Shown: positions 4,644 to 30,454 of the stretch, in pieces
Layout: each line of letters starts with the position of its first letter
Position numbering within the stretch: position 1 is the stretch's first letter
The notes under the pieces: model-generated
Databases searched by the model: none
What the model saw: only the letters and a program-made list of their open reading frames with translations
What the model was told of the DNA's origin: nothing
Made by a program: the position numbers and the translations under genes
Source: Oscillospiraceae bacterium
GTDB lineage: Bacteria; Bacillota; Clostridia; Oscillospirales; Oscillospiraceae
Assembly: GCA_015067665.1 (NCBI GenBank)
Contig: SVLZ01000018.1
Span: 1 to 33,640, forward strand
Reading direction: 5' to 3'
DNA: 33,640 nt

Positions 4644-6677
4644 TTACTGTTTCTTGCCGTAGAGCAAATAGTACTGGAAACCACCGAATTTCAGCTCTGC
4701 CTTGCCGTTATCGCAGACAGTCTCTCCGGTCATTTTGTTCTCCAAGCTCCCTACCCCAAGGGCGGTAAAATCAAGGGTCACATCCCCGGCAAAATCCATC
4801 GACACGCTGGAACAAACTGCCAGCACTTCCCGATCTGTTTCGTAGTAGCTGACTTTAATGCCACTATCGGAAATCTTCACATCGTGGTCGTGGAAATAAG
4901 GCCGCCACTGGGCTTCCTCCAAGGGGAAAGCATCGAAAATATCCCAAAGCTTAGAGGTTTCCTCCAAGGGCTCACTGATGTCCACAGGCTTGGGCATCGA
5001 ATTATGCAGCAGTGCCATAGAAATCGCATTGCTGTATGTCCATACAGGCGGTTCAGAATAGCAGAGAGAATATACGGGAATACCCAAATTTACGCCGGTA
5101 TACAGTGCCCGCAGATGACCCTCCGGCATCTCGCGGATCGTACCGTGCATCAGCAGATTTTGGAAATTCTCGCCCTCCCAAAAAGCGGTGCAGTAGTTGA
5201 TGCCCGGAAGAGTCATACTACCATAGCCGTGGCAATTCAGCACACCGCCACGGGCTTTCACAAAGTGATACAGTTCCTTGACCGTCTTACGTACACCGGG
5301 ACTGGAGAAGGTGGGGACAATTTTGCCGTTGTGGACGTAGCCACAGCCGTGCTCCAAATTACCGCATGGGAATGCGCCCAGCATACTGTCGATATAGATA
5401 CCGTCCAAATCGTATTCTTCTACGATTTTCTTAACACCCTCACGGAAGATCTCTCCCCAAGGGCCGTTTTGACAGATACGCAGGGCCCTTTGTGCCGGCC
5501 AGCGGTTCCAGCTGCCGGTCACCTCTTCATCCGGTTTGGGATAAGCCAGCAGCTTTCTGCCGTACTGGGCAAAGTAAGGTGACAGTGAAGAGACCTCAAA
5601 GCCGAAATAAGGCACTACCTTTATGCCACGCTTATGGCACTCGGAGACAATGTAACGCAGCCGTTTTGCGGTGCGGTCAGTGAGAATAGGCGAATTTTGC
5701 ATATCGTTCCATTTCTCGTGGATATATAGCGTCTTGACACCCAGCCGCTGCAATCTGTCAAAGCCGATCTCCTCGCTTCCCTCCACTACGGGGCCTGCAA
5801 AAAATTCCTCGTAGTTGGTGGCAATTTTCTTGAAGCAGTCCACATGGAAGCTGCGCTCGGTAAAGGGACGCTTGGGCAGCTCTCGGACAGGTGTTGCCAT
5901 AAAGCCAAACTTGAAGGTCACTGGCACAAGGCGGTCAGCGATCTCCACATCCTTACAGGATTCGCCCCAAGACTCCGGTGTGCCGTCCAGGAAATGAATA
6001 CGAATCACATAGGCATTTTCGGTTTCTATCACCTCAATGACCCGTTTTTCGTCCGCGATATTCCAACCCTCATTGGTTGTAAAGAAGGCGCCAAGGCCAA
6101 CCTTTTCACCGCACAGCAGTACCTGCGCGGCAAATTCCGATTGGAAGCCGCCCTTGGGGATAAAATCACAGAAGGAAAGCTCTCTGGGCATATTTGCCGG
6201 GAAATCGCCGGTCAGCTTGGTATCCGGGGGAACATGATAAAATTGCACCGCATCCTTACGGACGGGAATGTCCAGATAGAAATGCTCCACTGTGCGCTCC
6301 CGGTATTCCTTGGGCTCTAAGCCGAAAATCTGACGTACCGTAAAGCCTCTGGGCATCAAAGACACATTGGCAAAGGTACAGCCGTCCTCCTCGGTGGTAA
6401 TGCAGGTGTTGATATAAAAGAGGCTGCTTTCGGTGGTAGCTACCAAGGTGCAGCTATCCTCCTGATAGGTGGTCGGCAGCACAGTCGCGGGGGTAAAGAC
6501 CATTTCTTCTCCGTTGGATTTCAGAGAGAAGGTCATAGGACCTGCCAGCAGTTCTTGCCCTTGAGAAAGGACAGAGGAAGGCAGCACCGTGCCATCATAG
6601 GTATAGGTACGGCCATAAGAATATACCCGCACAACGTTTTCTTTTTCTTCTAAGTAGGGAAATTTCATTTCTTCCAT
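4644..6677 (-). CDS. Putative TIM-barrel glycoside hydrolase, DUF6067-like
   Basis: The 677-residue protein has an N-terminal beta-sandwich-like region (about 1-250), the linker ATPVRELPKRPF (261-272), and a barrel with LYIHEKWNDMQ (317-327), CHKRGIKVVPYFGFE (347-361), DLDGIYIDSM (423-432) and FWEGENF (499-505). This order resembles DUF6067-type hydrolases, distant relatives of GH-D/GH123-like barrels. Asp430 and Glu501 are candidate catalytic acids by position. There is no signal peptide, so it acts in the cytoplasm. It is the last operon gene, 18 bases after the DUF5107 gene, with GGGGAGG before the ATG and a terminator 10 bases after the stop. The bond cleaved is unknown, and the family placement is from memory of motifs. 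Confidence 0.65.
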   Translation of the reverse strand: MEEMKFPYLEEKENVVRVYSYGRTYTYDGTVLPSSVLSQGQELLAGPMTFSLKSNGEEMVFTPATVLPTTYQEDSCTLVATTESSLFYINTCITTEEDGCTFANVSLMPRGFTVRQIFGLEPKEYRERTVEHFYLDIPVRKDAVQFYHVPPDTKLTGDFPANMPRELSFCDFIPKGGFQSEFAAQVLLCGEKVGLGAFFTTNEGWNIADEKRVIEVIETENAYVIRIHFLDGTPESWGESCKDVEIADRLVPVTFKFGFMATPVRELPKRPFTERSFHVDCFKKIATNYEEFFAGPVVEGSEEIGFDRLQRLGVKTLYIHEKWNDMQNSPILTDRTAKRLRYIVSECHKRGIKVVPYFGFEVSSLSPYFAQYGRKLLAYPKPDEEVTGSWNRWPAQRALRICQNGPWGEIFREGVKKIVEEYDLDGIYIDSMLGAFPCGNLEHGCGYVHNGKIVPTFSSPGVRKTVKELYHFVKARGGVLNCHGYGSMTLPGINYCTAFWEGENFQNLLMHGTIREMPEGHLRALYTGVNLGIPVYSLCYSEPPVWTYSNAISMALLHNSMPKPVDISEPLEETSKLWDIFDAFPLEEAQWRPYFHDHDVKISDSGIKVSYYETDREVLAVCSSVSMDFAGDVTLDFTALGVGSLENKMTGETVCDNGKAELKFGGFQYYLLYGKKQ

Positions 6678-6695
6678 ATTTCTCTTCCTCCCCGA

Positions 6696-8705
6696 TCAAT
6701 GTGTACGGAAATCCAACGCGCCCAAGGGATATTTTTCTTCTACCAGCCGGTTGATTTCCGCTTCCTCTGTAAGCCCCGTTTCTTCGGCAATAATATGGCT
6801 ATAGAGTACCCGCCACACATCGGAAATTGCGGTATCACCCTCTTTAATATCGGGCATCACAAGTCGCTCATTGAGATAAGCCGTTGCTTCTTTGTATTTT
6901 CCCTGCTTCATATAGGCAATGGCTGTGTTAAATTGCAGCCGTCCATCCTTTTGGAATTTTTCCGGCAGGCTATTGTAAAGGGCGATCCATTGCTCGCTCT
7001 CCCCTGCCGCCAGCAGCACCATCGCTGTCTCCAGCAAAATGCCGCGGCAGGTCGGGTTCAGGCGCACCGCAATGCGGATGTATTCTGCTGCCTTTTCCAT
7101 ATTGCCGTACTCATTTTTCCAGAGCATCGCCAAGTTTCTTGCTGCCCAAGGGTTTTCCTTACAAGCAAAGGACTTTTCCATAAGGGTACGGGCCGATTCC
7201 ACGTTGCCGGCCGCATACTCCATAAGACCTAAATGCATATACGCATACCAATGGCGGTTTTCTTTCCGCTCCATAGCCTTATGAAGCCGCAGGCGCCACT
7301 TTTCGTCCACAAGATAACCCTTAGGCTCCTGCGAAACAGGTGCTTCCGGGAAGATTCCTTGCCGCAGCAGCGAAACCCATTCCTGCTGGGCTTCTGTCAG
7401 CGCATCTTCCGGGAATTGGCAGAAATTCGACAGTGTCAGATCCCCATCCTGCTGACGGATCAGCGCTTCCAGCGTTCCCCAGCCGGAACCGTATAGCAGC
7501 ATCTCTTCCGGGGCGGCCTCCATTTTTTGCAGCGCTCCCAGCTCTTTTTCCATGCCGGCGGGGAAATGGGCATCCAGCCCGTTTTCCACAGACTGTCTTG
7601 CCGCCTGCCACGTACCGTGGGCTTGCGGTGCATTGACTGCACCGTAACCCTCCACCCAGCTCCAGACCTCGTCCTTAGGCATTGGAATGTGCTCCAACTG
7701 GGTATAAGCAAGACCTGCCTGAATCTCCACATAGCCCTCGTTGGTGCCATCGGAGAGATAGCGGTTCCAGTTCTTACCGCCGGCACCATCGCCCCAAACA
7801 AAGAGCTTGCGGCCCTTAAGCTGGGCAGTGGAGCATTGCAGCAGACCGTAGCCCTTTGCATCCACAGCGGCGATCCACTTGCGCTGCTCTTTGGGCACCT
7901 TGAAGAAGAAATCCAAGGAGCGAGGCACCTGCACAGGATAGCTGATGTCTCCGCCAAAGGCCTGCGGTACGTTCTTTACGGAATCGAGAATATAGTGGTC
8001 GTTTCCAAAGTAATTGATAAACATCTCGTCAGCAGGGACGATGACACGGGTCTGCCGTGTTTGGGGCACGGCGATATTGGACCACCAGTACATCCAAATG
8101 TCCTTTCCCGTCCGATTTTCAATACAGGGACGGATATAGAGCATTTTGGAATCTGTAGGAAGCCAAATATCCATACTGTATGCAACGCCCCGGATCCGCT
8201 CGTATTCATAAAGGCGCACACCTTCGCTGCCGTCTGCCATTCGCAGCTTTTGGGCAAAGAGGGGCGAGCAGGTCAAGGGATTATGTCCCTTAATGGACAC
8301 GTTAAATTCCACGCCGCCGCTGAACCAAGCGTTTCGCAGAGCCAAATTGCCCGGCTGGAAAACGGGATTGCGGTAAAGCAGCTCTCTGTCTGTTTCCTTA
8401 TCGATGAGCGACCACAGTCTGCCGCCCAATTGGGGAAGAAAAACCGCCTTTAAGTACTTATTTTCCACGATAACCGCCTGATAAGCTTTCTCCTTGCGGT
8501 TACGGTCATAGCTGTCCTGCACAGTATAGGGCAGCAAGGTGTTGATCATACCCGTACCGATTCGCTGTTTTTCCTCCGGTGTCACCGCGTCTGTGGTCTC
8601 GATCTGGGCATGGATATAGGTATTGTTTTTAATATCCGGCAAGGGATTGTCTCTTCCCAATTCCACAGAGGGAATGACGTAATCTTGCAAATAGACTTTT
8701 GACAT
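6696..8705 (-). CDS. DUF5107 protein with C-terminal TPRs
   Basis: The N-terminal half (about 40-350) fits DUF5107, a galactose-mutarotase-like beta-sandwich: LPQLGGRLWSLID at 90-102 and WFSGGVEFN at 127-135, then MYWWSNIAVPQ. The C-terminal part (about 470-640) is a string of TPR-like helices (YMHLGLMEYAAGNVESA, NMEKAAEYIRIAVRLNP, FNTAIAYMKQGKYKEA). DUF5107-TPR proteins are recurrent in carbohydrate loci of Firmicutes and Actinobacteria, but I know no firmly established reaction. The GGxEFN and mutarotase-like motifs suggest sugar binding or hydrolysis. There is no export signal. An AGGAG lies 6 bases before the ATG. It is 21 bases downstream of the GH127 gene and 18 bases upstream of the DUF6067-like gene. 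Confidence 0.75.
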   Translation of the reverse strand: MSKVYLQDYVIPSVELGRDNPLPDIKNNTYIHAQIETTDAVTPEEKQRIGTGMINTLLPYTVQDSYDRNRKEKAYQAVIVENKYLKAVFLPQLGGRLWSLIDKETDRELLYRNPVFQPGNLALRNAWFSGGVEFNVSIKGHNPLTCSPLFAQKLRMADGSEGVRLYEYERIRGVAYSMDIWLPTDSKMLYIRPCIENRTGKDIWMYWWSNIAVPQTRQTRVIVPADEMFINYFGNDHYILDSVKNVPQAFGGDISYPVQVPRSLDFFFKVPKEQRKWIAAVDAKGYGLLQCSTAQLKGRKLFVWGDGAGGKNWNRYLSDGTNEGYVEIQAGLAYTQLEHIPMPKDEVWSWVEGYGAVNAPQAHGTWQAARQSVENGLDAHFPAGMEKELGALQKMEAAPEEMLLYGSGWGTLEALIRQQDGDLTLSNFCQFPEDALTEAQQEWVSLLRQGIFPEAPVSQEPKGYLVDEKWRLRLHKAMERKENRHWYAYMHLGLMEYAAGNVESARTLMEKSFACKENPWAARNLAMLWKNEYGNMEKAAEYIRIAVRLNPTCRGILLETAMVLLAAGESEQWIALYNSLPEKFQKDGRLQFNTAIAYMKQGKYKEATAYLNERLVMPDIKEGDTAISDVWRVLYSHIIAEETGLTEEAEINRLVEEKYPLGALDFRTH

Positions 8706-8726
8706 AATGAACTCCTGTATTCCTCG

Positions 8727-10562
8727 TTATGCGTAGGTGTCGTAGAGCTTATGACCGATCCGGGCTTCCAGCTCTTGCAGCGGGCGCATATTCTCCTGCC
8801 GCAGCCATACTGCCATTGTCGCATCGCCTTCCCGGTTACACCAAGTATAGTAAGGAATCAGGCAGAAGGTACTGCCGTCGGATGCCTTACCGTAGACCTT
8901 GTTGTCTAAAAGATGTAAACCCGGGTTTTCTGCGATCTCAATGTCTACATTGCCACCATTGTCGATGCCCTCTGCACACATCACATAAGGTCCGTACATA
9001 ACAGCGGTCCTGCCCCGGTCCTCCTCCACCTTGGGATTTGCATAGACCCGGCGCAAAACATAGTCATAAGAAACCGTAATGGGCGCATCCTCACTCCAAA
9101 CGCCGTCCATGACCGCATAGCCCTTTTCCACACGGTAGGAGAGCTTTTCGCCGCACTGCAGCAGGGAGAAATTCTCCACATATTCGGGAATCCGGATTTT
9201 GACGGTGAGTCTTTCACCCTTGGAATCTACAACGATCTCTCTTCCCTTTTGGCAGACGGTGAAGCGGTCATTTTCATATCGGCTGCCGATATGCAGATTT
9301 ATATTGACTGCACCATCGTCATAGGAATAAATAAAGCTATTAAGCGCAGAGAACAGCTTCAGCAGCATAGGTGGGCAACAAGGACAGCCATGCCACTCCC
9401 AACGGCGCAGCGTACCGTCGCTCTGCAAGGGATTTTGATAGAAGAAATGGCGGAAATCCTCGCCGACGGCGGAAAGGATATTATTATAGAGAGAGCGTTC
9501 AAAGTAATCAAAGTACTTACTGTCCTGATAAACGAGATTCATCTCTGTATTCCAAAACGCAAGGCCGATGCCTGCACAGGTCTCCAAGTATGCCTTATTG
9601 GGCAGGTAGTAGTCCACATCAAAGCCCTCAATGTCATACCGGGCGCCGATACCGCCGCTGAGATGGAGCTTTCTGTTTACCATATTGTCCCAGAGCTTAT
9701 CCAGCGCTTGGAAATAATCCTGTCTGCCTGTCTCTTGGGCAACCACCGTTGCGCCAAGGTAGCACAGCATTGCGCGGACAGAGTGTCCCATAACCTCGTC
9801 CTGTTCCGCAAAGGTAATATGGTCCTGATTGTATTCGGGCTTGAATCTTTTTGCCATAAAGCGACCCCGGTGGTCACCTCGTGCCTCATACCAGAACTCT
9901 GCCATCCGGAGATATTCTTCGTGACGGACATTGTTTTCTGCCGCAAAGGATGCCAACGATTTGTCATCCCGGAACAGGCGGTACAGCTTTACAAAGGCCT
10001 CCTCGGGCAGAGAGTGGCCGGGGATAATATTTTTCTTGGGTGCCGGACCGATCATATCGCAGATGAGGTTGGCACTCCGCACGGCAGTACCCAGAAGCGT
10101 TGTTTTGCCGGTAGCCAAATAGTGGCTGACGGCAGCCTCGATCAGGGTGCCGTGGTCATAAAGATCGTGCTGCTCCACAATGTCACCGTCATTATCGCCC
10201 CAAATCTTATCCGGGTAGTTTTGGGTGGTCATTGTGCAAAGGAAACCGTCGTTTTTATCGGCTGCTGCATTCAAAATTTCGATAGACTTGTCAATGTAAG
10301 CCTCCAGCAAAGGATCACGGTCTGCCGCCAAAAAGTCACAAGCGCCTCGCAGGGACTCCATAAAAAGACCGTCGGAGAAAGGAGGGCCGATATGCTTCTG
10401 ACCGTCCTCGTTGATGACCGACAGGAAATTCTGTACGTAGCCGATCTCTTCAAATTTCTTAAAAACATAGGGCAGCATCTTATGGCGCACGTTATCAAGA
10501 TAAGGCGTCCAAAAACTGTCCTGGACAACAACCGTTCCCACTTTCGGATATTTTTGATACAT
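8727..10562 (-). CDS. GH127-family glycosidase (beta-L-arabinofuranosidase type)
   Basis: The 611-residue protein shows the GH127 zinc-thiolate site. LETC gives Glu327 and Cys329, HGCPCCPP (391-398) gives Cys395 and Cys396, and Glu312 aligns with the acid/base Glu322 of Bifidobacterium HypBA1, with one residue fewer between it and the ETC motif. The fold is an (alpha/alpha)6 barrel followed by beta domains. Characterised members remove beta-L-arabinofuranose; one Bacteroides RG-II member removes aceric acid, so the sugar cannot be fixed here. There is no signal peptide, so it should act in the cytoplasm. An excellent TTAGGAGG lies before the ATG, and the gene starts 15 bases after the GH106-like stop. 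Confidence 0.88.
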   Translation of the reverse strand: MYQKYPKVGTVVVQDSFWTPYLDNVRHKMLPYVFKKFEEIGYVQNFLSVINEDGQKHIGPPFSDGLFMESLRGACDFLAADRDPLLEAYIDKSIEILNAAADKNDGFLCTMTTQNYPDKIWGDNDGDIVEQHDLYDHGTLIEAAVSHYLATGKTTLLGTAVRSANLICDMIGPAPKKNIIPGHSLPEEAFVKLYRLFRDDKSLASFAAENNVRHEEYLRMAEFWYEARGDHRGRFMAKRFKPEYNQDHITFAEQDEVMGHSVRAMLCYLGATVVAQETGRQDYFQALDKLWDNMVNRKLHLSGGIGARYDIEGFDVDYYLPNKAYLETCAGIGLAFWNTEMNLVYQDSKYFDYFERSLYNNILSAVGEDFRHFFYQNPLQSDGTLRRWEWHGCPCCPPMLLKLFSALNSFIYSYDDGAVNINLHIGSRYENDRFTVCQKGREIVVDSKGERLTVKIRIPEYVENFSLLQCGEKLSYRVEKGYAVMDGVWSEDAPITVSYDYVLRRVYANPKVEEDRGRTAVMYGPYVMCAEGIDNGGNVDIEIAENPGLHLLDNKVYGKASDGSTFCLIPYYTWCNREGDATMAVWLRQENMRPLQELEARIGHKLYDTYA

Positions 10563-10577
10563 AAAATGACCTCCTAA

Positions 10578-13430
10578 TTAAAGACTGTAAAATGGCTTCA
10601 GATCATAACCCGTGTGATATTCCGGGCTTTCCTTCCCCTGCCAGGTTCCAAAGAACTGGAAGCTGTGGGGTGTGACGGTTTTTGTTTTGCTGCCTACAAA
10701 GTGGTGAGGGCCAAGGAGATTGCGGTTGCTGTTCCAAAAACGCACCTGCACCTCGTTCTCTCCTGCCTTGGCAGCGCCGGAAACATCTATTTCCTTTTCA
10801 AACAGCAGCTTTCCAAGATTTACGCCGTTGACGGTCACCTCTGCCATCAGGTATTCTCCGGGCAGCTGCAGGTTTATATTCTCTCCCGGGAAAGACACCC
10901 TCTGTGTCAGCACCACTTCGCCTGCAAGGAAGGGGAAGCCCTCCAAGCTAAAATTAGACACCTGCCGTGGCACCGCGCCAATGTAAAAGGCATCTGCTTC
11001 TACAAAGCCCGGCTCTGTAGCCCGATAGCCCGTCTCTGTATACACACCGAACTGCCCGGTAAGGATGATCGGCTGTAATTCCGAATCGTAGACGATGCTG
11101 TTTCGCAGCGTTTCTGTTACGTTTTCTCCAAACAGGGCGAAATAGACATTTTCTCCTTCGAACCAATCCCGCTGTACGGTATATTCGTTTCGTCCTTTTT
11201 GCACCAAAGCAGTTATGTCATAAACACTGACGCAGCCATCCTCTATGCAGATCGGTTCCTTTAGTGGCTTGCCGTTGAGCATAACACAATTTTCGTGCTC
11301 CGCCTCTGTTTTCAGCAAAATTTGCGTCGGCAGTTCCTGTATTTCAAATGCATATTTTAGATAAAGCTTTCCCTCATAGCGATCCTGCAGCAGCTTTTGA
11401 AACAGCGCCGGGATAGGCCAAGGCTGAGAGAACGATTCTCCATCTGTGGAGAACTGAACCGTATCCACGGGCAATGCATTTTCTTTGAAGGAAATTTCCG
11501 CGTTTTGGAAGCGCATCTCAAAATTCTGTAACACCTGCTTTGGCTCTACCGCCTCTTCGTCCGGGAATAGGAGCGCATCCTCCCCCGGTGCCAAATGGAC
11601 AGTAAGAGGCACCCGGGCAGCAGACAGATCCCGCAGATCCACCTTAATAAAGGATCGGATAGCCGGACCGAAATCAAAGGTTTGGCTGTAGCCCGCTTTA
11701 TCGGATGCGTTGATGGCATACAGATACTGCTGTCCGTCCATTTTGCGGCAAGTAGAATAAATGCCCTCGCTGGGCGTTACCCGATACGCCTGAGAAGACA
11801 CCATATCCTCCAAGGTGCAGTTACTGTGCAGGTAGGAATAATCGAAAGGCTGACCCTCTAAGAGGGTAGGCTTTTCGTCCAGCAGCAGAAGCTTGCCGCC
11901 CTGCGCAACGAACCGGCGCACCAGCTTCTCGGTGGAGGCATCCATATTGCATATTTTCGGAATGACCAAATACGTGTAGCTGCATTTGCCGCAGCCGATG
12001 GTATTACCATCCACAAAGCCGTGCTCTCCAAGTAGGGTCTCATCCAAATGATGGAAGGCAATTCCGTGGCTTTTCAGCCATTTATTGGCATCAAAAAAGG
12101 CTTTTTCCAGCGTCTGCATCTCTTCTCCGCCCTGCTGCTGGGGTTCGTAGCAAAGATAAGCGCTGCGGATGGGGTGCAAAAGGGCAACCTTTACCTGCTC
12201 CTCACCCTCGCCCAACAGATAGCCCAGTCGGGCAAAGTAAGTATTAAAATCCCGGAATCCCTCTTTGATCCAAGGATTCATATCCAAATAGTGGGCAGGA
12301 TATTCGTATTTTCGGCTTCCCCGTTCGGAATAGGGAATCATATGGTAACACAGTAGATTCACACCGTTTACATACTGGAAGCCGGCGATCCTTCTCAGCT
12401 GCGCGGGAGTCACATCCCAGCCACAGCAGGCAAAGCTCTCGGAAATCAGCTGTTTTCTGCCCATTTGGGCAACCACGCTGGCGCATTGGGTGATAGACAT
12501 AGAGTCCTCGGTCCCCTTCCCCAGCCAGTCGATGCCGGGAATATGCGCAAATTCGTACATCGGCATCACACCGGCATTGCTTCGCATCTGCAGGGACAGA
12601 CCGTTTTCCCCCATAAAATGCCCGGTGAAAAACATTCCGTTTTCCTCGCACCAGTGATACAGCCTTTTGGCAAAGTGGGTTTGCATCAGCTTTTGCATAC
12701 CCTTCCAGTAGCGGTAACGGAAGACCCGATAGCCCTCCTGCCGGGTAAAGAGCAGACCCAAAGAGTCCAAAATATCCTCCCCGTATTCTTCCCGGAAATA
12801 GGCTGCCATTTGGTCTGTATAGGCAGTTTTTGGGAAGTAATACTGGGGTTCGTCTGTAAAGAAGCCGCGAATTTGGGAAGAAAAAGCCTCGCCAAAGCGT
12901 CGCTTATAAGCCTTATGTGTGTGGTGAAGGAAGGAATCCACCGCATCAGGGTTTAATATATCCGCTGTAGATACTGCCCGATGAATATAGAGATTCAGAT
13001 ACCGGTCGTGTGTATCCTCCTCGGTCCGCACCAGCTTTCCGTCCTGCACAATGTAGTGGACGCTGGCATTTGGGTCAAATGCGCCCCAAACGGCAGTAAG
13101 AAAACGGTCACGGTGCGCTTCGTTTGCAAGAACCTTACCGCCGGCAAAGCCGCTGGGCCAGCCGTTTTCGTCGTAGATCCAAGCCTGCATTCCCCTTTTT
13201 TGGGCTTCTTCTGCGCAAAATTCTACGCAGTCCATCCATTCTTCGGACAGATACTCTGTTAAGAGTCCTGCTCTGGCATGGACAAAGAAGCCGCCGATAG
13301 CATCTCTGTCCATAAGCCCGATTTGCTTCGCCAGTTCCTCTTTCTCAAGCCGATCGTTCCAAACCCAAAAAGGAACAGGCCGGTAAGATAAATAAGTTTC
13401 GCCTTCAAAATACTTGTTTAGCTTTTGCAT
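10578..13430 (-). CDS. GH106-like alpha-L-rhamnosidase
   Basis: The 950-residue protein opens with the typical pattern of Glyco_hydro_106 proteins: PVPFWVWND (18-26), IGGFFVHARAGLLTEYL (45-61) and WIYDENGWPSGFAGG (84-98). Later come FFTDEPQYY (190-198, candidate Glu194) and LISESFACCGWD (328-339, candidate Glu331). The C-terminal third contains jelly-roll stretches, including LPGEYLMAEVTVNGVNLG. The family is a TIM-barrel group including alpha-L-rhamnosidases acting on pectic side chains; many members are uncharacterised, so the exact sugar is inferred. There is no export signal. It starts 9 bases after the stop of the 501-aa gene, with AGGTG as ribosome binding site. Confidence 0.8.
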   Translation of the reverse strand: MQKLNKYFEGETYLSYRPVPFWVWNDRLEKEELAKQIGLMDRDAIGGFFVHARAGLLTEYLSEEWMDCVEFCAEEAQKRGMQAWIYDENGWPSGFAGGKVLANEAHRDRFLTAVWGAFDPNASVHYIVQDGKLVRTEEDTHDRYLNLYIHRAVSTADILNPDAVDSFLHHTHKAYKRRFGEAFSSQIRGFFTDEPQYYFPKTAYTDQMAAYFREEYGEDILDSLGLLFTRQEGYRVFRYRYWKGMQKLMQTHFAKRLYHWCEENGMFFTGHFMGENGLSLQMRSNAGVMPMYEFAHIPGIDWLGKGTEDSMSITQCASVVAQMGRKQLISESFACCGWDVTPAQLRRIAGFQYVNGVNLLCYHMIPYSERGSRKYEYPAHYLDMNPWIKEGFRDFNTYFARLGYLLGEGEEQVKVALLHPIRSAYLCYEPQQQGGEEMQTLEKAFFDANKWLKSHGIAFHHLDETLLGEHGFVDGNTIGCGKCSYTYLVIPKICNMDASTEKLVRRFVAQGGKLLLLDEKPTLLEGQPFDYSYLHSNCTLEDMVSSQAYRVTPSEGIYSTCRKMDGQQYLYAINASDKAGYSQTFDFGPAIRSFIKVDLRDLSAARVPLTVHLAPGEDALLFPDEEAVEPKQVLQNFEMRFQNAEISFKENALPVDTVQFSTDGESFSQPWPIPALFQKLLQDRYEGKLYLKYAFEIQELPTQILLKTEAEHENCVMLNGKPLKEPICIEDGCVSVYDITALVQKGRNEYTVQRDWFEGENVYFALFGENVTETLRNSIVYDSELQPIILTGQFGVYTETGYRATEPGFVEADAFYIGAVPRQVSNFSLEGFPFLAGEVVLTQRVSFPGENINLQLPGEYLMAEVTVNGVNLGKLLFEKEIDVSGAAKAGENEVQVRFWNSNRNLLGPHHFVGSKTKTVTPHSFQFFGTWQGKESPEYHTGYDLKPFYSL

Positions 13431-13439
13431 ACGAACACC

Positions 13440-16579: not shown

Positions 16580-16614
16580 ATTGTTTCTCCTTTACAGGCA
16601 GCACAAAACAGATA

Positions 16615-16648: not shown

Positions 16649-16667
16649 CGCTTATAGGATATACATT

Positions 16668-22310: not shown

Positions 22311-24107
22311 TTATTTCTTGTACTGACCCAGTGCGGTGTTCGTTGCCTCAATGTAGGCATACAGGAAGTCTTCCAGGGTCTTCTTGCCGTAACGAACCTC
22401 ATTGTTGAGGGGGTTGGACCAAGTGGTGATCCAGTTGTTATCGGTCATATACCACCAGTCACCTGCGCTGGCGTTCTGTACGGAGGTCAGAATAACTTCA
22501 GGGTTATTATACTTTGCAGCCAGACCTTCGAGAGAAGTCTCTGCATCGGATTTGCGGGAAGAAACGTAGCCGTTCTTTGCCAGGAATGTCTGACCGTCGG
22601 TAGCAAACCACTTTACAAATTCCTTAGCAGCATCCTGAATCCGGGAATCAGCCTTGTTGTTGATCGCCAGAGAGTAGCCCAGAGAGTGCGCAGCGGTCTT
22701 GCCGGCTACCTTAACATCGTCGCAAGAGGGATCGGAGGGGCTGGTGTACTCCTTGTACTGAGGCATAGGCGCAACAGACCAAGTATCCTTCATAATCTTG
22801 CCGATATTGCCGAAGTTGGAGATCTTCTCAACCAGCAGAGCCATATCGCCGCCTGCGAAGTACTGAGAAGCGGTGGTGCCGTTAAACTGGTTGGGGTAAG
22901 GACATACGTTCAGGCCGCCGATAGCGGACAGGTAAACAAAACGGGAGAAAGCGTCCTTAATGGAGGGCAGCTTTGCCAGAGTGCCGTTTGCGATCTCAGC
23001 ACTGAAATCCCGGAAAGCGGCAGTCTTGCCGTTTACAGTGTAGTTGAAGTAAGACTTATTATCGGTTTCAAAGGAAATAGTTGCGCCCTTGTCAGCTGCC
23101 AGAACATCCTTAAAGTCCAGGGTGTCGCCTGCCTTGTAGACAGTGCCGGTGTAGATGCCGGTGTAGGTCTTGCCGTCGAGAACGATATAGTTGGGATTGT
23201 TTGCAGGCAGAGAGTAAGCCCAGTCACCGTTGCCGGTCAGGTCTTCCATACAGTCGCCGCCTACGGACCAGCCGTAGTTGAACCACCACTCGGAGTAGTA
23301 GCCGTACTTGGACTCAGAGCTCTCATTGATGGACTTGGTGCAAAGCATTGCCAAATCTTCGATCTCGTCCCAGTTCATAGCGATGCGGTCGTTGAAGATC
23401 AGAACTTCGCCGTCAGGATTCTGCCAGGAAGCACCGTCAGTTTCGCCTGCGCCGGGAACAAAGGGAGTGCCGCTGCGGTAGTAGCCCTTATTGGGAACAT
23501 TGACGGTAATACCGTAGTCGCCCTTAGTCTTGCCGTTGCCGTCCTTGAAAGTACCGGCATTGAAGGCTTCCAGATCCTTAGCCTCTACGCTGATGCAGAT
23601 CACGCCATTGGCTTCCAGAACAGTCTTGTTGTAGTAGAGAACCGTTGCGTCGTTGAAAACGGGAACTGCATACAGAGGATCCGTGCTGTTGGAGGTAGTG
23701 GTATCCCGGTTGTAGTGATAACGGCTGATAATGGTCTCATAGAAATCATCGTGCTCAGCCTGACTCAGAACACCGGACAGATCTGCAAAATACTGGGTGT
23801 AACGTTTGAAATAGTCATCGGCCAGAGCCATAACGTCAGGGCCGGTGCCGGCAGGCAGCTGCTGGGCCAGAACCGTGTTGATGGAGCTGGACTTGGGAAT
23901 ACCCTTAATTTTGATGCCCTTGGTAGCGCCAACAGTCTTGTTAAATTCCTGAATTGCCAGGCCGTACATTTCGGTAACGGCTGCGTCACCGCCGTACATA
24001 AAGTCGACTTGAACGGTGCCGGAACCGCCGTTATCACCACAGGCTACCAAGCCCAAGGTCATAAGCAGCGCCATACCGAACGTGAGTATGCGTTTCATAA
24101 GTTTCAT
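22311..24107 (-). CDS. CUT1 ABC transporter solute-binding lipoprotein
   Basis: The 598-residue protein has a basic head, hydrophobic stretch and lipobox LVAC (Cys23), then a family 1 extracellular solute-binding fold: FNKTVGATKGIKIKGI, VLAQQLPAGTGPDVMALAD, VPVFNDATVLYYNKTVLEANG, GGDMALLVEKISNFGNIG, SLGYSLAINNKADSRIQDAAKEFVKWFAT. It is long for the family (usually about 400-450, or about 550 in the LplA-like group), which fits large oligosaccharide ligands. AGGAGG precedes the ATG. It sits 18 bases downstream of the second permease. Confidence 0.9.
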   Translation of the reverse strand: MKLMKRILTFGMALLMTLGLVACGDNGGSGTVQVDFMYGGDAAVTEMYGLAIQEFNKTVGATKGIKIKGIPKSSSINTVLAQQLPAGTGPDVMALADDYFKRYTQYFADLSGVLSQAEHDDFYETIISRYHYNRDTTTSNSTDPLYAVPVFNDATVLYYNKTVLEANGVICISVEAKDLEAFNAGTFKDGNGKTKGDYGITVNVPNKGYYRSGTPFVPGAGETDGASWQNPDGEVLIFNDRIAMNWDEIEDLAMLCTKSINESSESKYGYYSEWWFNYGWSVGGDCMEDLTGNGDWAYSLPANNPNYIVLDGKTYTGIYTGTVYKAGDTLDFKDVLAADKGATISFETDNKSYFNYTVNGKTAAFRDFSAEIANGTLAKLPSIKDAFSRFVYLSAIGGLNVCPYPNQFNGTTASQYFAGGDMALLVEKISNFGNIGKIMKDTWSVAPMPQYKEYTSPSDPSCDDVKVAGKTAAHSLGYSLAINNKADSRIQDAAKEFVKWFATDGQTFLAKNGYVSSRKSDAETSLEGLAAKYNNPEVILTSVQNASAGDWWYMTDNNWITTWSNPLNNEVRYGKKTLEDFLYAYIEATNTALGQYKK

Positions 24108-24125: not shown

Positions 24126-25223
24126 TTATCCTTTTAATCCAGACGACATTGCAATGCCGCTGAGAATTTTCTTTTGGAAAAATACGTATACAAGTAACAT
24201 CGGTACCAGCGCAAATACACAAGCGGAGGCGATCAGTGACTTGTCTAACGAGGACCAGCTAATAAAGTCCAACGCTACCTGAAGCGTATACTTTTCAGGG
24301 TCGTTTAAGTAAATCAAGGGTCCTAAGAAATCATTGTACTTGGAAATGAAGTTCAAAATGAACTGTGCCAAAATAGCGGGCTTACCCAAGGGAATCACGA
24401 TCAGCAGGAACGAAGTCCATTTGCCTGCGCCATCGATACGGGCAGCCTCCAGCATTCCGTCGGGGATACCCATAAAATACTCGCGCATAAACATAACCGT
24501 AGCCGCACCGCCGAAAAACCCGGGGATGATCAGCGGCATAGCGGAATCTGTCCAGCCGTACCAAGCATACATCAAATAAGAGGTTGTCATCGTCACACAG
24601 CCAGGCATCATCATAGTCATAATGAGCAAATGATACAGCGTATTTCTGCCCTTAAATTTCAGCTTGGAAAAAGCATAAGCGGAAAGGGCAGAAACCATTA
24701 CACCGATCAATGTGGGAATAATGGCATAGATAAAAGAGTTCCACGCTGCCCGCAGCATGGAAACACCCAACACCACGGAGTAGGAGAAAATTTCTTTATA
24801 GGATTCAAAATCGAAACCTTCCTTGGGCCACCAGGTAAATTCAATGCTGTTAGCTTCCAGGGGTGTCTTAACGGAGGTAAGCAGCAGCATATAGAACGGG
24901 ATACCGATCACTACGGTCATCAGAAGCAGCGGAAGTGAATTGGACCAGTCCATTTTCCGCGAAACAAAAGACTGATAGATCTTGTAGTCACGGTTCGTTT
25001 CCCGCAGGCGGTTATTTACGATTTTCAGTGCTGCAATACCCAGCAGCGCAATCACCAGCACGATGAGATTTACCACATCGTTATTGGTGCCCTCCGCCGG
25101 CTCAAAGCAGCACAGGATCAGGCAGATCACCACCACGACACTCAGCACGGGGATCATAAAATCGTGCAGATACTTCGTAAACTTCAGGATAGGAGATAAC
25201 GCGTTTTTCTGATTAGAAATCAT
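24126..25223 (-). CDS. CUT1 ABC transporter permease, MalG/UgpE type, with N-terminal extension
   Basis: The 365-residue membrane protein carries the permease EAA loop MLEAARIDGAGKW (257-269), which docks to the ATPase. The canonical first helix begins near 98 (LPLLLMTVVIGIPFYMLLLTS). Before it lie about 85 extra residues with two more predicted membrane segments (22-40 and 50-69), so it is longer than the usual 270-300 residues. GGAGAGGTGGG precedes the start, and the gene overlaps the upstream permease by 11 bases. It forms the membrane channel with that permease. No ATPase gene is present in the window. Confidence 0.92.
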   Translation of the reverse strand: MISNQKNALSPILKFTKYLHDFMIPVLSVVVVICLILCCFEPAEGTNNDVVNLIVLVIALLGIAALKIVNNRLRETNRDYKIYQSFVSRKMDWSNSLPLLLMTVVIGIPFYMLLLTSVKTPLEANSIEFTWWPKEGFDFESYKEIFSYSVVLGVSMLRAAWNSFIYAIIPTLIGVMVSALSAYAFSKLKFKGRNTLYHLLIMTMMMPGCVTMTTSYLMYAWYGWTDSAMPLIIPGFFGGAATVMFMREYFMGIPDGMLEAARIDGAGKWTSFLLIVIPLGKPAILAQFILNFISKYNDFLGPLIYLNDPEKYTLQVALDFISWSSLDKSLIASACVFALVPMLLVYVFFQKKILSGIAMSSGLKG

Positions 25224-26163
25224 AGCTTACCCACCTCTCCTGCAGCTTCATATTGATCTTGGTGATAATAAATACGATGATGGCAAGAACCCAGCCTGCA
25301 GCGGCAGCCATACCGTAGCCGTCCTGTGCGGGGCGTACCCAAACCATGTTGTAAATATGTTTAACCACCAAGTCACTGACCCAAGCCTGACTGTCACCCC
25401 AAGCAGGAACAGTGGTATTGTAGCCTGTAGTCAAAATGTAGGTCTCTGTCATTGCCTGCAGTGCCCAAATGATCTTCATTGTTACGAGATAAGAGGTAGT
25501 AGGCGAAATCGCAGGCCAAGTAATTCTCCAGAAGATCTGGGTGTCGGAGGCGCCGTCCAGCTTTGCCGCCTCATAGAGCTTTGTATCTACGTTTGCAAGC
25601 GCTGCCTGGAACAGCAAAATACAGAAGCCCAGACCCTGCCATACTGTCATGATGATGGTAGCGGCCATAAAGGTCCACGGAGAGTCCGTCAGCCAGCCCA
25701 CCGGGGAAAAGCCCATAAAGGAAAGCAATGCGTTGAGCATACCCGATTCATTATGATAGATGGACTTAAAGGCCAAAGCGATAACCACCGCAGAACAGAC
25801 ATAGGGAATAAAAAATACAGAGCGGAAGAAACGCTGGCCGAACTTTGCTTTATTCAGCAGATTTGCGATATACAGTGCCAATCCGATACAGATAGGCACG
25901 TTCAGGGAGTAGACAATGGTGGACAAATAGGACGCGTAGGTTCTTTTGTCACCGTCAGTCAAAACCTTAAGAAAGTTTTCAAATCCCACAAATACCATTT
26001 CGGACAGATCTGTGGTGTGAAGCTCGGTGAAGCTGACCACAGTGGCCAAAATCAGCGGGATCACACCAAAGAGCAGAAAGCCGATCAGGGGACCTGAGGC
26101 AGCGATGGCGCTGCCCAGGTTATCCCGTCTTTGTAGTCTCTGTTTTGGTGTTAAAGTTTTCAT
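25213..26163 (-). CDS. CUT1 ABC transporter permease, MalF/UgpA type
   Basis: The 316-residue protein has six membrane segments and the EAA loop LYEAAKLDGASDTQIFWRITWP (196-217, shown in the usual position). The N-terminal helix GPLIGFLLFGVIPLILATVVSF (24-45) is typical. It pairs with the next permease and the solute-binding lipoprotein. The GAGG upstream of the ATG is a weak ribosome binding site. The gene follows the 794-aa lipoprotein gene by 25 bases. Confidence 0.92.
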   Translation of the reverse strand: MKTLTPKQRLQRRDNLGSAIAASGPLIGFLLFGVIPLILATVVSFTELHTTDLSEMVFVGFENFLKVLTDGDKRTYASYLSTIVYSLNVPICIGLALYIANLLNKAKFGQRFFRSVFFIPYVCSAVVIALAFKSIYHNESGMLNALLSFMGFSPVGWLTDSPWTFMAATIIMTVWQGLGFCILLFQAALANVDTKLYEAAKLDGASDTQIFWRITWPAISPTTSYLVTMKIIWALQAMTETYILTTGYNTTVPAWGDSQAWVSDLVVKHIYNMVWVRPAQDGYGMAAAAGWVLAIIVFIITKINMKLQERWVSYDF

Positions 26164-26188
26164 AAAAGAGCCTCGAAATGTGCTTTAA

Positions 26189-28573
26189 TTATGCTTCGGG
26201 AGTATCGGGTGTAATAATGGAAGTGTCAACATCAGCGCCGGTCTTGACGGTGATGCCGGAGAACTTACCGGTGGAAGCGGAGTTGTTGTTGAACAGCTCG
26301 AGGGTGTAGGTACTGCCTGCTGCAAAACCGGTGAAGGGGTTGTCAGTCCAAGCGGGACCGCCGGAAGTGCCGGTCAGGGTCTCGGTTAGAGGAATCTCCC
26401 AAGCCAGAACAGGCTCTTCGCCCTCGAACCAGAACCATACGTAAAGCATATCGTTAGCGATGACTGCCTTATAGTACATCTTGCTTTCTGACTTTGCAGC
26501 AGCAAACTTGTCCAGATTAATGGTGCTCTTGACATACTGGGTAGTAGTACCGTTACCAATAATGGCATGGTAAGCATAACGGCCGTGGCCGGAGTGTGCT
26601 TCAAATACGGGGCCGCGGGTAGTTGCGGAGATACGCAGGCTCTTGCCGCCGGCGCGGAGGTTAAAGCCCATGCACAGGGCATCCGTGCCATTACGCTCAA
26701 CCGCGCCACTTACTTCCCAAGTTGCAGAGTTACCGGCGAACTTAATGCTGGTTCCCTTATTGGCAAGGATGCTGATATCGCCGTTTGCATCCTTAGTACC
26801 AACACCGATCAGTGCAGCATATTTAGGTGCCTGTGTCTTATCGACACTGTCGCCATTCTTCACAACCAGATTGGTGAACTGACCAGGTGTAGCGGTGGTA
26901 TTGTTAAAGAGATGGAGCTTGTACTCACTGTCGGGAGCAAAGCCGGTAAAGGGATTATCAGTCCATGCAGCACCACCGTCAACGCCGGTCAGCGTCTCGG
27001 TCAGAGGTACATACCAGCACAGTGTGGGCTCTTCGCCGTCGAACCAGTAGTATGCATAGAATACGTCGTCAATGATCTGTACCTTGAAGTGCATCTTGCT
27101 CTGGGTGCGCTTCTCACCGAAGGCAAACGCGCCGGTCTTGGTGTTCAGGTTGTAATGAGAAATACCGAATGCGTGGTAAGCGTAACGGCCATGACCGTCG
27201 TGCGCCTCGAATACAAGGCCCTCTCTGGTAGCGCTCATACGCAGGGTCTTTCCATTGGACTCGATCATAAAGCCGATGCAGAAGTCCTCTGCCTTCAGGT
27301 CGTCCGTCAGGCGCTCTGCAGTGCCGCTGACTTCCCAAGTCTTGGAAGCGCCATTCATAGTAACTCTGTTCAGCTTGCCGGGGATGCTTGCGAAAGAAGC
27401 GTTAACAAAGTCCAGCTTAACGCCCAGTGCCAGCTCGGGAACGAAGGTGATCTTCTCTTCCCAACGGCTGGTTTCGGGAGCAGTGATCTCGCCCTCGGTA
27501 GTATGTACGACCTCGGAGAAGGATACAAGATCGCTTGCAGCATTCTTGCCATACAGACCGATCTTTACAGCGCTTTCAGCGGTGTAGCCGGGCAGTGCAT
27601 TCTCAAGTGCAACTGCGCCACAAGCTACGTCGTTGATAACTACGTACAGCATACCGTCCTTAATGATCACATTGATCTTGCAGGCGCCATCGACAAAGGT
27701 GGTTGCTTCTTCGGACAGAAGTCCGGTGACAGAGCCGTCAAGGCCGCCGAGGATCAGGTTCAGGTTCTTACCGGCGCCGGTCATATAGAGAATGGTCGTC
27801 GTATCGCCGGAAGAGATCGCGATACCGGTATCGGAGATCGCATTTTCCATAGTAGAGAGGCGGATGGTAGTAGTGAAGGACTGGTTGCCTGCAAATGCAG
27901 GAGCGTAGAGAGGTGCAACTTCCGCGCTGCCGGGAACATAGCCTTCTTCATAGGACCAATCGCCGGACTGTACTTCAAAGGTTACAGAAGCATCTGCAGT
28001 CAGTGCCTTGAAGCTGTCAGCCGTGAGATCGCCCTTGGTGCCATTGAGGTAGCAATCCACACCCAGCAGGGACAGGCCGTCATACCATACAGCCTCCTGT
28101 GTTTCAACGATGCCTACGCCGTAAGCGGCAGTATAGGTGGCATCTTCCTTTGTAATGTAGTCGAACTTGACCTGTACACGGATACGGTCATAGTAGACCT
28201 TCAGTTCTGCGCCCTCTGCGACGGACTCAATTGCCACAACAGAGGTCTCTTCATTAAGCGCAAAGCCATCACGGGCGCCGTCGGGAGCAGTGACCTTTGT
28301 GCCTTCCTTGGCCTGCAGCTGCTGCACCTCCGGTTCGCCATAGGTGCCCAGTTCAGTAGCCTCGTAGTAGAATTTTACTGTGTAGTTCACATCAGGAAGA
28401 GAAGGATCCACAGGATCTGTAGGATCTACAGGAGCCTCGGTGGGATCCGTGGGACCCTCAGTGGGATTCGGTGTGATCCCGGGGATCTCAAAGGGGAGGT
28501 CGCAGGCTGATAAACCAATCAGCATCAGCACTGCCAATACCAAAGCGGTAAGTCTGATCTTGCTGTTTTTCAT
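26189..28573 (-). CDS. Repeat-containing surface lipoprotein, putative glycan binder
   Basis: The 794-residue protein has a lipobox LSAC (Cys24), a PT-rich linker (34-58), an InlB/MucBP-like beta domain (63-130) and three beta-sandwich-like regions. The first (about 204-356) is divergent. The second (411-575) and third (617-782) are clear copies sharing TWEVSG, FEAH.GHGRYAYHA, WF.GEEP and PLTETLTG...AWTDNPFTGFA. No catalytic motif is recognisable. The position directly before the permeases suggests capture of the polysaccharide at the cell surface. AGGAGG lies before the ATG. The domain family is not one I can name; a LamG/concanavalin-like fold is a guess from the strand pattern. Confidence 0.75.
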   Translation of the reverse strand: MKNSKIRLTALVLAVLMLIGLSACDLPFEIPGITPNPTEGPTDPTEAPVDPTDPVDPSLPDVNYTVKFYYEATELGTYGEPEVQQLQAKEGTKVTAPDGARDGFALNEETSVVAIESVAEGAELKVYYDRIRVQVKFDYITKEDATYTAAYGVGIVETQEAVWYDGLSLLGVDCYLNGTKGDLTADSFKALTADASVTFEVQSGDWSYEEGYVPGSAEVAPLYAPAFAGNQSFTTTIRLSTMENAISDTGIAISSGDTTTILYMTGAGKNLNLILGGLDGSVTGLLSEEATTFVDGACKINVIIKDGMLYVVINDVACGAVALENALPGYTAESAVKIGLYGKNAASDLVSFSEVVHTTEGEITAPETSRWEEKITFVPELALGVKLDFVNASFASIPGKLNRVTMNGASKTWEVSGTAERLTDDLKAEDFCIGFMIESNGKTLRMSATREGLVFEAHDGHGRYAYHAFGISHYNLNTKTGAFAFGEKRTQSKMHFKVQIIDDVFYAYYWFDGEEPTLCWYVPLTETLTGVDGGAAWTDNPFTGFAPDSEYKLHLFNNTTATPGQFTNLVVKNGDSVDKTQAPKYAALIGVGTKDANGDISILANKGTSIKFAGNSATWEVSGAVERNGTDALCMGFNLRAGGKSLRISATTRGPVFEAHSGHGRYAYHAIIGNGTTTQYVKSTINLDKFAAAKSESKMYYKAVIANDMLYVWFWFEGEEPVLAWEIPLTETLTGTSGGPAWTDNPFTGFAAGSTYTLELFNNNSASTGKFSGITVKTGADVDTSIITPDTPEA
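26228..26725 (-). repeat. Tandem module copy 2 of the 794-aa lipoprotein (residues 617-782)
   Basis: It is the C-terminal copy of the same module, with the same conserved aromatic and acidic positions (GHGRYAYHA, WFEGEEP). The protein ends about 12 residues later. Confidence 0.85.
26849..27343 (-). repeat. Tandem module copy 1 of the 794-aa lipoprotein (residues 411-575)
   Basis: This copy shares FEAH-x-GHGRYAYHA and the PLTETLTG/AWTDNPFTGFA segments with the copy at 26228-26725. The near-identity of the terminal segments suggests a recent duplication or selection on a binding face. Confidence 0.85.
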
Positions 28574-28585
28574 GTTTTTTTCCTC

Positions 28586-30454
28586 CTATTTTTTAGAATA
28601 AATATAATACAGTGCCATATCGCACTTGTATACACGTTCTGTCTCTCCGCGGATGGGCTCTAAGGTCCAGCCCTCCTGTACGCGGAAATCCGTACTTTGG
28701 GTCTTATCCGAGTAGTTGATGGCGCAGGCAATATAGGTTTTTTCATCTACCTTATGGAGTGTGACACCGATCTGGGGGTTGTCCGAGCGAATAATCTTTC
28801 CGTCCAGCACCTGCTGACCTGCTCGCTTGTAGATCTTGTACCAATCGGTATCGGTAAATGCCCCTGCCTTGGAAGAAAGGGACATCTCCAGCGGCATATT
28901 CAGGAAGAACACCTTGCCTTTGCCGTAGGAATGCTCTGTAAATACAGGATTGCCCGTTTCATTGACCGCCAGCACATTCGCACCGACGCTTTCCAGCAAC
29001 AGCTCGTAGGTCACATTGTAGGTCATCTCACCGAAGTCAAACTTGGCGGTATGGGTGCCTTGGGTCTTGATATTGCCATGGGGCAGGAGACCAAAGACCT
29101 CCTCCATTTCAATGAGGCTGCCACCGTCGTAGGTCACCAGCATCACTGCGCCTTCATCGTGGACCTTTTTCTTCAGAATATCCCAGCTGTGCTTGTACAT
29201 AATCGCCCACTTCCATACACCGGGCACGATGTACATCGGTGCGTCGGGAAGGTAGACATTACGCACATTGCCGGGGCAATACTGCATACTGAGACCTGCC
29301 TGCTTCGCAAGAACGAAAGAAGAAGAAGCGTTATTCCACTGCTCATTCTCTGTCAGGACGCAGACCGCATCAATTTGACGGGGCGGCAGTTCCTTGAAGG
29401 GCAGCGCGCCGAGCACCTTGCCGGCTTCTGCGATGGCTTTTCCGACAGGCTTGGGCTTTCGGTTTTCGTCCATAAGCCCCAAGGAACGTTCCATCATCGA
29501 CCATATGTAAGGCGGTGTCTCCAAGTGGATGTGCTCACAGCCGCACCACCAGAAGTAACCGTGGACATTGTGGGCAAAAGAGGAATAGATATTCACTCTT
29601 GCAAAATCCGCTGCCATCTCATCATTTGCCGTTGTTACCGTAAAGCCGCCCTGCTCCTGCATAATGACAGGCTTTCCGCCCAGATCCTGATAGAACATAC
29701 TCTGGGCCGTGGGGAAAATCGTGGCGCGCATCTGATTGGCCGGGTCAAGGTCATTATTGATGGTGGGAGATACATAGGGGTGGGTGGTCATATAGTCAGT
29801 CAGCTCACCCTGATCGCTGATCGTCCAAACCCCTGCCTCGTCCGACTCCAAGCCGTGCATGCCGGAGGAGATGGGACGGGTGGGATCCACTGCCCGGATG
29901 GCATTTCTGACAAAAGCCGTCCAGACATACGCCTCTGCGCGGGAAGTGGTCTGTCCCAAACAGTTGCACTCATTGCCCAAGTCCCACATCACAATATTGG
30001 GCAGGTCCTTAACGCGGGATACAAAACCGCGGATAAACCGATCCGTCCACATAAGTGCCTCAGGATCGCTGATCATATTTCTTCCGTCTAAAATGGGAGG
30101 CACAAAAAGCCGTCCGCTCATCCAGCCGGTCACCACAGAAACCACCAAACGAATGCCGTGCTTATGACAGGTCATTGCAAAGTGGCGAAAGTTTTCTATC
30201 TGTTGCTCATCGATACCGGTAGCATCCTGCAGCGGTGCTTCCTCCACCGTTACCACGTCACTTGGCTTTCCTCGCCAAGCGTATAAACGCTTCACCGGTT
30301 GAAAATCTCTCCAATTGGGAAATACCCGCATACATTCTATTCCGGTACCAGATAGCGCCTCGATGTCCTGCTCGATCACGTCGGCATCGTAGTACTTCCA
30401 CATATCCGTACCGTGCGCGCTATCCCAGTAATTACAGCCTAACAAAAACTCCAT
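28586..30454 (-). CDS. Clan GH-A glycoside hydrolase (GH5/GH42-like), first gene of the operon
   Basis: The protein is 622 residues from ATG-GAG at 30454, chosen because AGGAGGTG lies 5 bases upstream; the in-frame start at 30481 has no such site. The barrel carries VMWDLGNECN (acid/base Glu162) and PVIMQEQGG (nucleophile Glu267), the beta-4 and beta-7 glutamates of clan GH-A. From about 370 it has a GH42-like trimerisation or amidotransferase-fold domain (QIDAVCVLTENEQW, APMYIVPGV, EGAVMLVTYDGGSL) and a beta-sandwich end. No signal peptide is visible, so it should act in the cytoplasm. The specificity (mannosidase, galactosidase or other) is not determinable by eye. It is divergent from the araC-type gene. 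Confidence 0.8.
   Translation of the reverse strand: MEFLLGCNYWDSAHGTDMWKYYDADVIEQDIEALSGTGIECMRVFPNWRDFQPVKRLYAWRGKPSDVVTVEEAPLQDATGIDEQQIENFRHFAMTCHKHGIRLVVSVVTGWMSGRLFVPPILDGRNMISDPEALMWTDRFIRGFVSRVKDLPNIVMWDLGNECNCLGQTTSRAEAYVWTAFVRNAIRAVDPTRPISSGMHGLESDEAGVWTISDQGELTDYMTTHPYVSPTINNDLDPANQMRATIFPTAQSMFYQDLGGKPVIMQEQGGFTVTTANDEMAADFARVNIYSSFAHNVHGYFWWCGCEHIHLETPPYIWSMMERSLGLMDENRKPKPVGKAIAEAGKVLGALPFKELPPRQIDAVCVLTENEQWNNASSSFVLAKQAGLSMQYCPGNVRNVYLPDAPMYIVPGVWKWAIMYKHSWDILKKKVHDEGAVMLVTYDGGSLIEMEEVFGLLPHGNIKTQGTHTAKFDFGEMTYNVTYELLLESVGANVLAVNETGNPVFTEHSYGKGKVFFLNMPLEMSLSSKAGAFTDTDWYKIYKRAGQQVLDGKIIRSDNPQIGVTLHKVDEKTYIACAINYSDKTQSTDFRVQEGWTLEPIRGETERVYKCDMALYYIYSKK

Follow-up and report, generated by a model that had tools for sequence, protein, structure and literature searches.

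Gram-positive gut bacteria account for much fiber degradation, but knowledge of their loci lags behind that for Bacteroides, whose loci for rhamnogalacturonan II (RG-II) contain glycoside hydrolases (GH) of families GH106 and GH127. In PMC5320581, a Gram-positive polysaccharide utilization locus (gpPUL) is defined by at least one polysaccharide-degrading enzyme, a carbohydrate transport system and a transcriptional regulator. Here we describe an operon of 14 genes in an Oscillospiraceae bacterium, which occupies positions 30454 down to 4644 on the minus strand of a window of 33,640 nucleotides (the whole stretch of DNA analyzed) on contig C39, part of a 1.83-Mb draft assembly (80 contigs, 85% complete). 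Judged by its predicted products, the operon would have all three components of that definition, namely enzymes of GH43, GH127 and GH106, two permeases with a probable binding lipoprotein, and a divergent AraC-family regulator. With a probability of roughly 0.6, we read it as a gpPUL for an acylated, rhamnose- and arabinose-rich glycan, likely of plant origin. The locus is accordingly of a known kind. Its enzyme set is unusual, and in several cases we found no function for the family to which the enzyme belongs.

The genes, named gN (first) to gA (last), all point in one direction and are spaced by -11 to 25 bp, with a single exception of 88 bp between gH (1262 aa) and gG (GDSL). This agrees with the 14 tightly spaced genes described in an earlier annotation of this DNA (the original prediction), which had also started gN at the ATG at 30454. 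We prefer that start to the mechanical call, a TTG at 30481, because AAGGAGGT lies immediately upstream of it. The AraC-type regulator that had been placed at the head of the operon is indeed found there, although it is divergent, on the plus strand, and not co-directional. Among the families previously named, GH43, GH127, GH106 and DUF5107 exceed their Pfam cut-offs, whereas GH78 falls outside the operon. The features are as follows:

30795..31610, plus strand: divergent AraC-family regulator with a sensor domain (HTH_18 79.3 bits, AraC_binding 39 bits)
28586..30454, minus strand: gN, 622 aa, clan GH-A (GH5-like) enzyme (Cellulase 26.2 and GH2_C 22.9 bits, barely over Pfam cut-offs)
26189..28573, minus strand: gM, 794-aa lipoprotein (lipobox LSAC at 21-24)
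25213..26163, minus strand: gL, carbohydrate-type ATP-binding cassette (ABC) permease (BPD_transp_1 66 bits)
24126..25223, minus strand: gK, carbohydrate-type ABC permease (BPD_transp_1 57.9 bits)
22311..24107, minus strand: gJ, 598 aa, probable solute-binding lipoprotein (lipobox LVAC; weak TIGR03850 match, 27.6 bits, cut-off 299)
20453..22288, minus strand: gI, 611-aa GH43 lipoprotein (GH43 91.2 bits, cut-off 32.2; lipobox LAAC)
16668..20456, minus strand: gH, 1262-aa lipoprotein, SGNH esterase domain in its C-terminal part at residues 1090-1247 (Lipase_GDSL_2 63.8 bits)
16614..16649, minus strand: 15-pair hairpin in the 88-bp gH/gG gap (weak T tail; stretch 16600-16667 folds at -32.6 kcal/mol)
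15854..16579, minus strand: gG, 241-aa GDSL/SGNH esterase without lipobox (Lipase_GDSL_2 72.7 bits)
14963..15841, minus strand: gF, 292 aa, SGNH/SASA-like family (invariant GQSN and D-x-x-H)
13440..14945, minus strand: gE, 501 aa, NodB/GH57-type barrel and beta-rich C-terminal part (predicted fold)
10578..13430, minus strand: gD, 950 aa, GH106-type, alpha-L-rhamnosidase family (PF17132 65 bits, cut-off 29)
8727..10562, minus strand: gC, 611-aa GH127 (PF07944 270 bits)
6696..8705, minus strand: gB, 669-aa DUF5107 and TPR protein (PF17128 123 bits)
4644..6677, minus strand: gA, 677-aa (beta/alpha)8 enzyme of GH36/GH31-like architecture (fold similarity; invariant D430 and E503)
4608..4635, minus strand: terminator-like hairpin after gA at the operon end (12 pairs and a T run; stretch 4590-4643 at -24.1 kcal/mol)

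The gpPUL reading is supported by gene content and order, by the lipoboxes, by the GH127 residues of gC and by the recurrence of gF-gG, of gB-gA and of gG-gE with GH78. Rhamnose is suggested by GH106, by a GH78 gene nearby and by a rhamnose run on contig C70 of the same genome. This run encodes an L-rhamnose isomerase (594 bits against a cut-off of 572 with one model, 557 of 585 with another), a protein resembling rhamnulokinases (408 of 528 bits) and a regulator of RhaS type (88 of 288). Arabinose is suggested by GH127 and GH43, and acyl groups by the three SGNH domains. The combination of the three is the best guess at the substrate, with "pectin" as one option; side chains of rhamnogalacturonan I or arabinogalactan would offer all of them. 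In its outline, then, the original prediction of a Gram-positive glycan operon with esterases and rhamnose- and arabinose-type hydrolases holds.

We infer the substrate, its linkages, every activity and the roles of gM, gE, gA and gB, and a working scheme can be sketched. The AraC protein would sense a released sugar and turn the operon on. At the surface, the lipoproteins gM and gJ would bind the glycan while gH strips acyl groups and gI cuts arabinose-type linkages. Oligosaccharides would then be imported by gJ-gK-gL with an ATPase encoded elsewhere; none was recognized among the 20 open reading frames (ORFs) of the window scanned with Pfam. In the cytoplasm, gG and gF could complete deacylation, gC remove beta-L-arabinofuranose-type units and gD alpha-L-rhamnose, with gN, gA and gE as putative further enzymes and gB accompanying gA. 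Released rhamnose would enter the RhaA/rhamnulokinase route encoded on C70.

In alignments to 3wkw and 4qjy, gC, a GH127 protein, retains the acid/base and the zinc/cysteine set: E312, E327, C329, C395 and C396 align with E322, E338, C340, C417 and C418 of 3wkw, which we take to be the zinc and catalytic set of the family. A matching zinc/cysteine residue set is described for a GH146 relative in PMC10850190. The family assignment of gD to GH106 follows from its PF17132 score, and the protein is remote from characterized members: it reaches 52.8 of 1300 bits with the BT4145 model and 28.7 bits with 6q2f, an alignment that is weak for the catalytic glutamates. Its sugar is therefore not secure. 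Elsewhere in the genome, another locus (L030, G000:C3:14000-33999) holds a GH106-type gene (20% identical to gD) together with a GH78-type gene and an AraC-type gene.

Upstream, gN is probably cytoplasmic, as no lipobox is seen. Its GH42M match is under cut-off, its nearest solved chains by sequence are 7bob and GH5_18, and it carries GNE and QEQG motifs, presumably candidates for the acid/base and the nucleophile of the GH-A clan. No Pfam family scores over cut-off in gM, which probably binds glycan. The best NCBIfam models of the permeases, MalF and UgpA for gL and UgpE and MalG for gK, all stay under their cut-offs, and gI has the motifs GPDPG, TIDANPF and EGP.

Three esterases had been predicted, and three SGNH proteins are found: two domains (gH, gG) over Pfam cut-offs and a third (gF) by invariant motifs. 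In gH the motifs are GDSF, GTND and DGLH, and its N-terminal LLGC, missed by the regular expression, was taken as a lipobox by eye. No Pfam match to gF appears even at E 10; however, G12-Q13-S14-N15, D267 and H270 are invariant in 25 aligned members, as expected of SGNH/SASA enzymes. Counting gF itself, the family has 175 members, and a closer relative (84%) lies on a metagenome contig. A search of 394 genomes yielded 15 others with a gF relative at E 1e-30, and all 15 loci were fetched. A gG relative directly follows the gF relative in three of the four closest (54-57%; L063, L065 and L066, not L064) and adjoins it in none of the 11 remoter loci, although contig ends truncate several of these. 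One protein (P0357) is a natural gF-gG fusion, its second domain sharing 45.8% identity with gG across 214 residues.

A separate observation concerns an RpiB/LacAB-type isomerase gene (190-195 aa, under the NCBIfam cut-offs shown), which adjoins relatives of gF-gG or gE at the following places:

L063 10178-12230: RpiB/LacAB-type isomerase locus, with a GH43 gene also beside it
L066 7647-9695: RpiB/LacAB-type isomerase locus, with a GH43 gene also beside it
L065 8920-9492: RpiB/LacAB-type isomerase locus
L004 11528-12112: RpiB/LacAB-type isomerase locus

The host has a copy on contig C41 (L081 9996-10571) that is 87% identical to the L066 protein, and C41 carries no gE or gF match.

The original prediction counted five orphan-type proteins, one of them gE. 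Hundreds of relatives were found for these proteins, and two have confident fold predictions. The orphan label does not fit gE, which has 567 relatives. Its predicted fold, of the NodB/GH57 type and similar to CE4/GH57, is nearest 3lm3 (putative glycoside hydrolase/deacetylase BDI_3119), to which it is alike at only 12% identity; searching PDB sequences with a profile built from 60 gE-type proteins gave no hit, and Pfam gives only a weak AstA match. A precomputed PF12979 label carried by some relatives was not reproduced, as gE, P0005 and P0050 show no PF12979 match at E 10, although P0005 is so labeled. A closer relative (85%) lies on a metagenome contig. Close gE relatives (48-56%) have both a gG relative and a GH78 gene as neighbors in two of seven loci (L004, L040), and the two named gE loci stem from herbivore guts, roe deer cecum and goat rumen.

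The last two genes form a recurring pair. In gA, by our own strand count, D430 ends barrel strand 4 and E503 follows strand 6, and both invariant residues are candidate catalytic residues. Similarity to GH36 is confined to the fold, given that no Melibiase (PF02065) match appears at E 0.1, and the Flavonifractor plautii galactosaminidase 9ayu, of the GH36/GH31 alpha-glycosidases, shares 12% identity with gA at a root-mean-square deviation of 7.2. Rather than resembling DUF6067, as had been suggested, gA matches GH123_N over cut-off through its C-terminal part, and its scores with GHL6 and DUF6259 stay under cut-off. It has 218 relatives, a closer one (93%) being on a metagenome contig. The nearest solved chain to gB is 5cd6_A (55.5 bits); its remaining solved-chain matches fall in the TPR part. 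All 12 gA loci were fetched, 11 from other genomes among the 394 of the order (E 1e-80) and one that the genus search added (G478, E 1e-60). In four of them (L078, L084, L087, L089) the gene directly upstream of the gA relative is a gB relative, and in L090 the two are one ORF apart in reversed order, so that 5/12 are linked; L086 and L088 end at contig ends upstream of the gA relative. An AraC gene is beside the pair in three of the five linked loci (L084, L087, L089), and in L087 a gN relative (39% over 630 residues) adjoins it as well.

The same gene order was sought in other genomes, as the original prediction had proposed. No complete copy of the operon was seen in the loci fetched, whereas gB-gA, gF-gG and gG-gE recur, and this co-occurrence, in small numbers, suggests a mosaic of gene sets that travel separately. 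By gene searches, the locus is rare and accessory in its genus: gE relatives of at least 50% occur in 0/60 other genomes, with weaker ones (up to 39%) in 10/60, and at E 1e-60 only 1/135 others has a relative of gA (36%). It was perhaps acquired horizontally. The operon has 50.4% G+C and four other stretches of the genome 47.5-51.4%, so composition gives no foreign mark; neither a tRNA nor an Rfam match reaching gathering score occurs in the window. Where relatives of its proteins are named, they belong to Clostridia, Lachnospiraceae, Ruminococcaceae/Oscillospiraceae and Tyzzerella, which makes a host of Clostridia type likely. We tentatively propose, at somewhat less than even odds, that portable modules (gB-gA, the paired cytoplasmic SGNH esterases gF-gG, and gE) meet here, and that at least gA and gE found new carbohydrate-active families whose substrate would be an acylated rhamnose/arabinose glycan. 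The interest of the locus lies in these recurring uncharacterized pairs and not in RG-II. An activity for gE, gA or gF would bear on hundreds of relatives (567, 218 and 175, respectively), and the operon offers candidate partners in the esterases gF-gG, the DUF5107 protein with its predicted glycosidase-like enzyme (gB-gA) and the gE family.

Two hairpins bear on how the operon may be transcribed. The one after gA (4635-4608) matches the tail terminator of the original prediction, whose account lacked the internal hairpin (16649-16614), a possible partial terminator or RNA-stability element. Before the latter, gN-gH comprise the transporter, four lipoproteins and gN, which is without a lipobox; past it, the seven genes gG-gA show no lipobox within the first 45 residues. 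An expression step may thus fall at this hairpin, between gN-gH and gG-gA. A third long intergenic hairpin (2767-2728) lies 3' of the PHP gene in a stretch that folds at -22.2 kcal/mol, and on the right side further hairpins follow AraC (31655-31610) and the next gene. Hairpin-like sites number 27 in the left part, where shuffles give 19.2 (sd 3.7), and 23 in the right part, where they give 13.1 (sd 3.7); because such sites often arise by chance, we give weight only to long ones between genes. The GH78 gene (444-2585), which had been taken as an operon member, is separated from the operon by HD and PHP genes and two terminator-like hairpins, and it is not counted in the operon because it lies beyond the end hairpin. 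It could nevertheless serve the same pathway. The intervening PHP-domain (2956-3987) and HD-type (3996-4559) genes, both on the minus strand, 8 bp apart and under Pfam cut-offs, lie between the end hairpin and GH78. On the other flank, a 348-aa probable lipoprotein (31655-32701, minus strand) has a T/P/E-rich stretch and a weak PF00545 (ribonuclease) match (15.8 bits, cut-off 24); we assume that it resembles a barnase-type secreted nuclease.

Several findings weigh against the proposed substrate. It draws on family labels, and GH127 is polyspecific, gD is remote from characterized GH106 members and gI is placed in GH43 at family level only. A search of the 85%-complete genome gave no GH28 hit, and Pfam scans of the 14 genes showed no uronate-processing family, which leaves the pectin-type substrate originally predicted plausible and no firmer. 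Of 26 other genomes, 4 (G200, G402, G016 and G146, the last with a GH106 match under cut-off) have a rhamnosidase-type gene within 10 kb of a gE relative, which is not significant (2.1 expected, Poisson P 0.16). With gC, gD and the GH78 protein as queries, tblastn gave no match in the fetched stretches of the five linked gB-gA loci. In two of these loci the pair lies within a few kb of other families, GH36 and GH39 (L090) or GH29 (L084), and gB-gA therefore do not by themselves point to pectin. These contexts lend something to the idea of a substrate outside the plant wall, such as a rhamnose-containing bacterial or algal exopolysaccharide or the decoration of a glycoside. GH127 enzymes act on arabinofuranose, aceric acid and 3,6-anhydrogalactose, the last a carrageenan-derived sugar, according to PMC5698469. 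Three SGNH domains with GH43 and GH127 suit acetylated plant glycans, as do the two gE loci from herbivore guts, and we consider a substrate outside the plant wall improbable.

The co-occurrence of GH106, GH127 and a nearby GH78 had led to the alternative of an RG-II side-chain locus resembling those of Bacteroides, in which gC would remove the aceric acid of chain B, and gD and GH78 its rhamnoses. One apiosidase-type protein of PF13204, a broad family, is encoded elsewhere in the genome:

L083 2422-4227 (G000:C13): PF13204 (apiosidase/DUF4038) protein, 601 aa (142.5 bits)

This protein has no NCBIfam match at E 0.001; it was the single hit to the only such family sought genome-wide, and the Pfam scans of the operon hold no other family that we associate with RG-II. 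Moreover, gC reaches 256 bits where the aceric acid hydrolase model NF049879 requires 950, and 5mqo, which we take to be BT1003, is sixth of its seven PDB matches (151 bits), behind 6ex6 (312), 4qjy (261; a GH127 arabinofuranosidase) and 3wkw (168) with near-identical entries. On these scores the aceric acid reading is unsupported, and we regard an RG-II locus as very improbable. Less remote, though still unlikely, is an arabinogalactan or gum locus, where GH127 and GH43 would remove arabinofuranose and the rhamnosidase the terminal rhamnose of side chains. We take the closest chain to gC, 6ex6, to be the Bacteroides GH127 BT3674, and GH43, the family of gI, also includes exo-galactanases. PMC10850190 cites BT3674 as working with exo-galactanases on larch arabinogalactan. 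Pfam scans of the operon revealed no GH16, GH30, GH35 or GH53 domain, and a gpPUL for an acylated, rhamnose- and arabinose-rich glycan remains our preferred reading.

Among literature matches on DUF6067, GHL6, PF14871, PF19543, PF17132 and DUF4038, no title listed concerns this kind of locus; titles in the DUF4038/GHL6 group include a DUF4038 protein of Bacteroides (PMC4032388) and glycoside hydrolase annotation (PMC13355591). Matches on DUF5107, PF12979, BDI_3119, 3LM3, PF17128, DUF6259 and PF19773 were by title unrelated, none was found on DUF3863, and by titles and abstract beginnings no match listed describes this gene combination. The operon resembles the Bacteroides RG-II loci in having GH106 and GH127, and differs in a GH127 that stays under the aceric acid hydrolase cut-off and in ABC import in place of SusCD. 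The gpPUL Ros-2 (pectin/xylan) has, according to PMC5320581, GH28, CE12, two GH43 predicted xylosidases and a xylose isomerase, whereas the operon described here has GH106, GH127, three SGNH domains and several uncharacterized families. In its general plan of degrading enzymes, an ABC transporter and an AraC-type regulator without SusCD, it is nonetheless like the gpPULs of Roseburia and Eubacterium rectale presented there.

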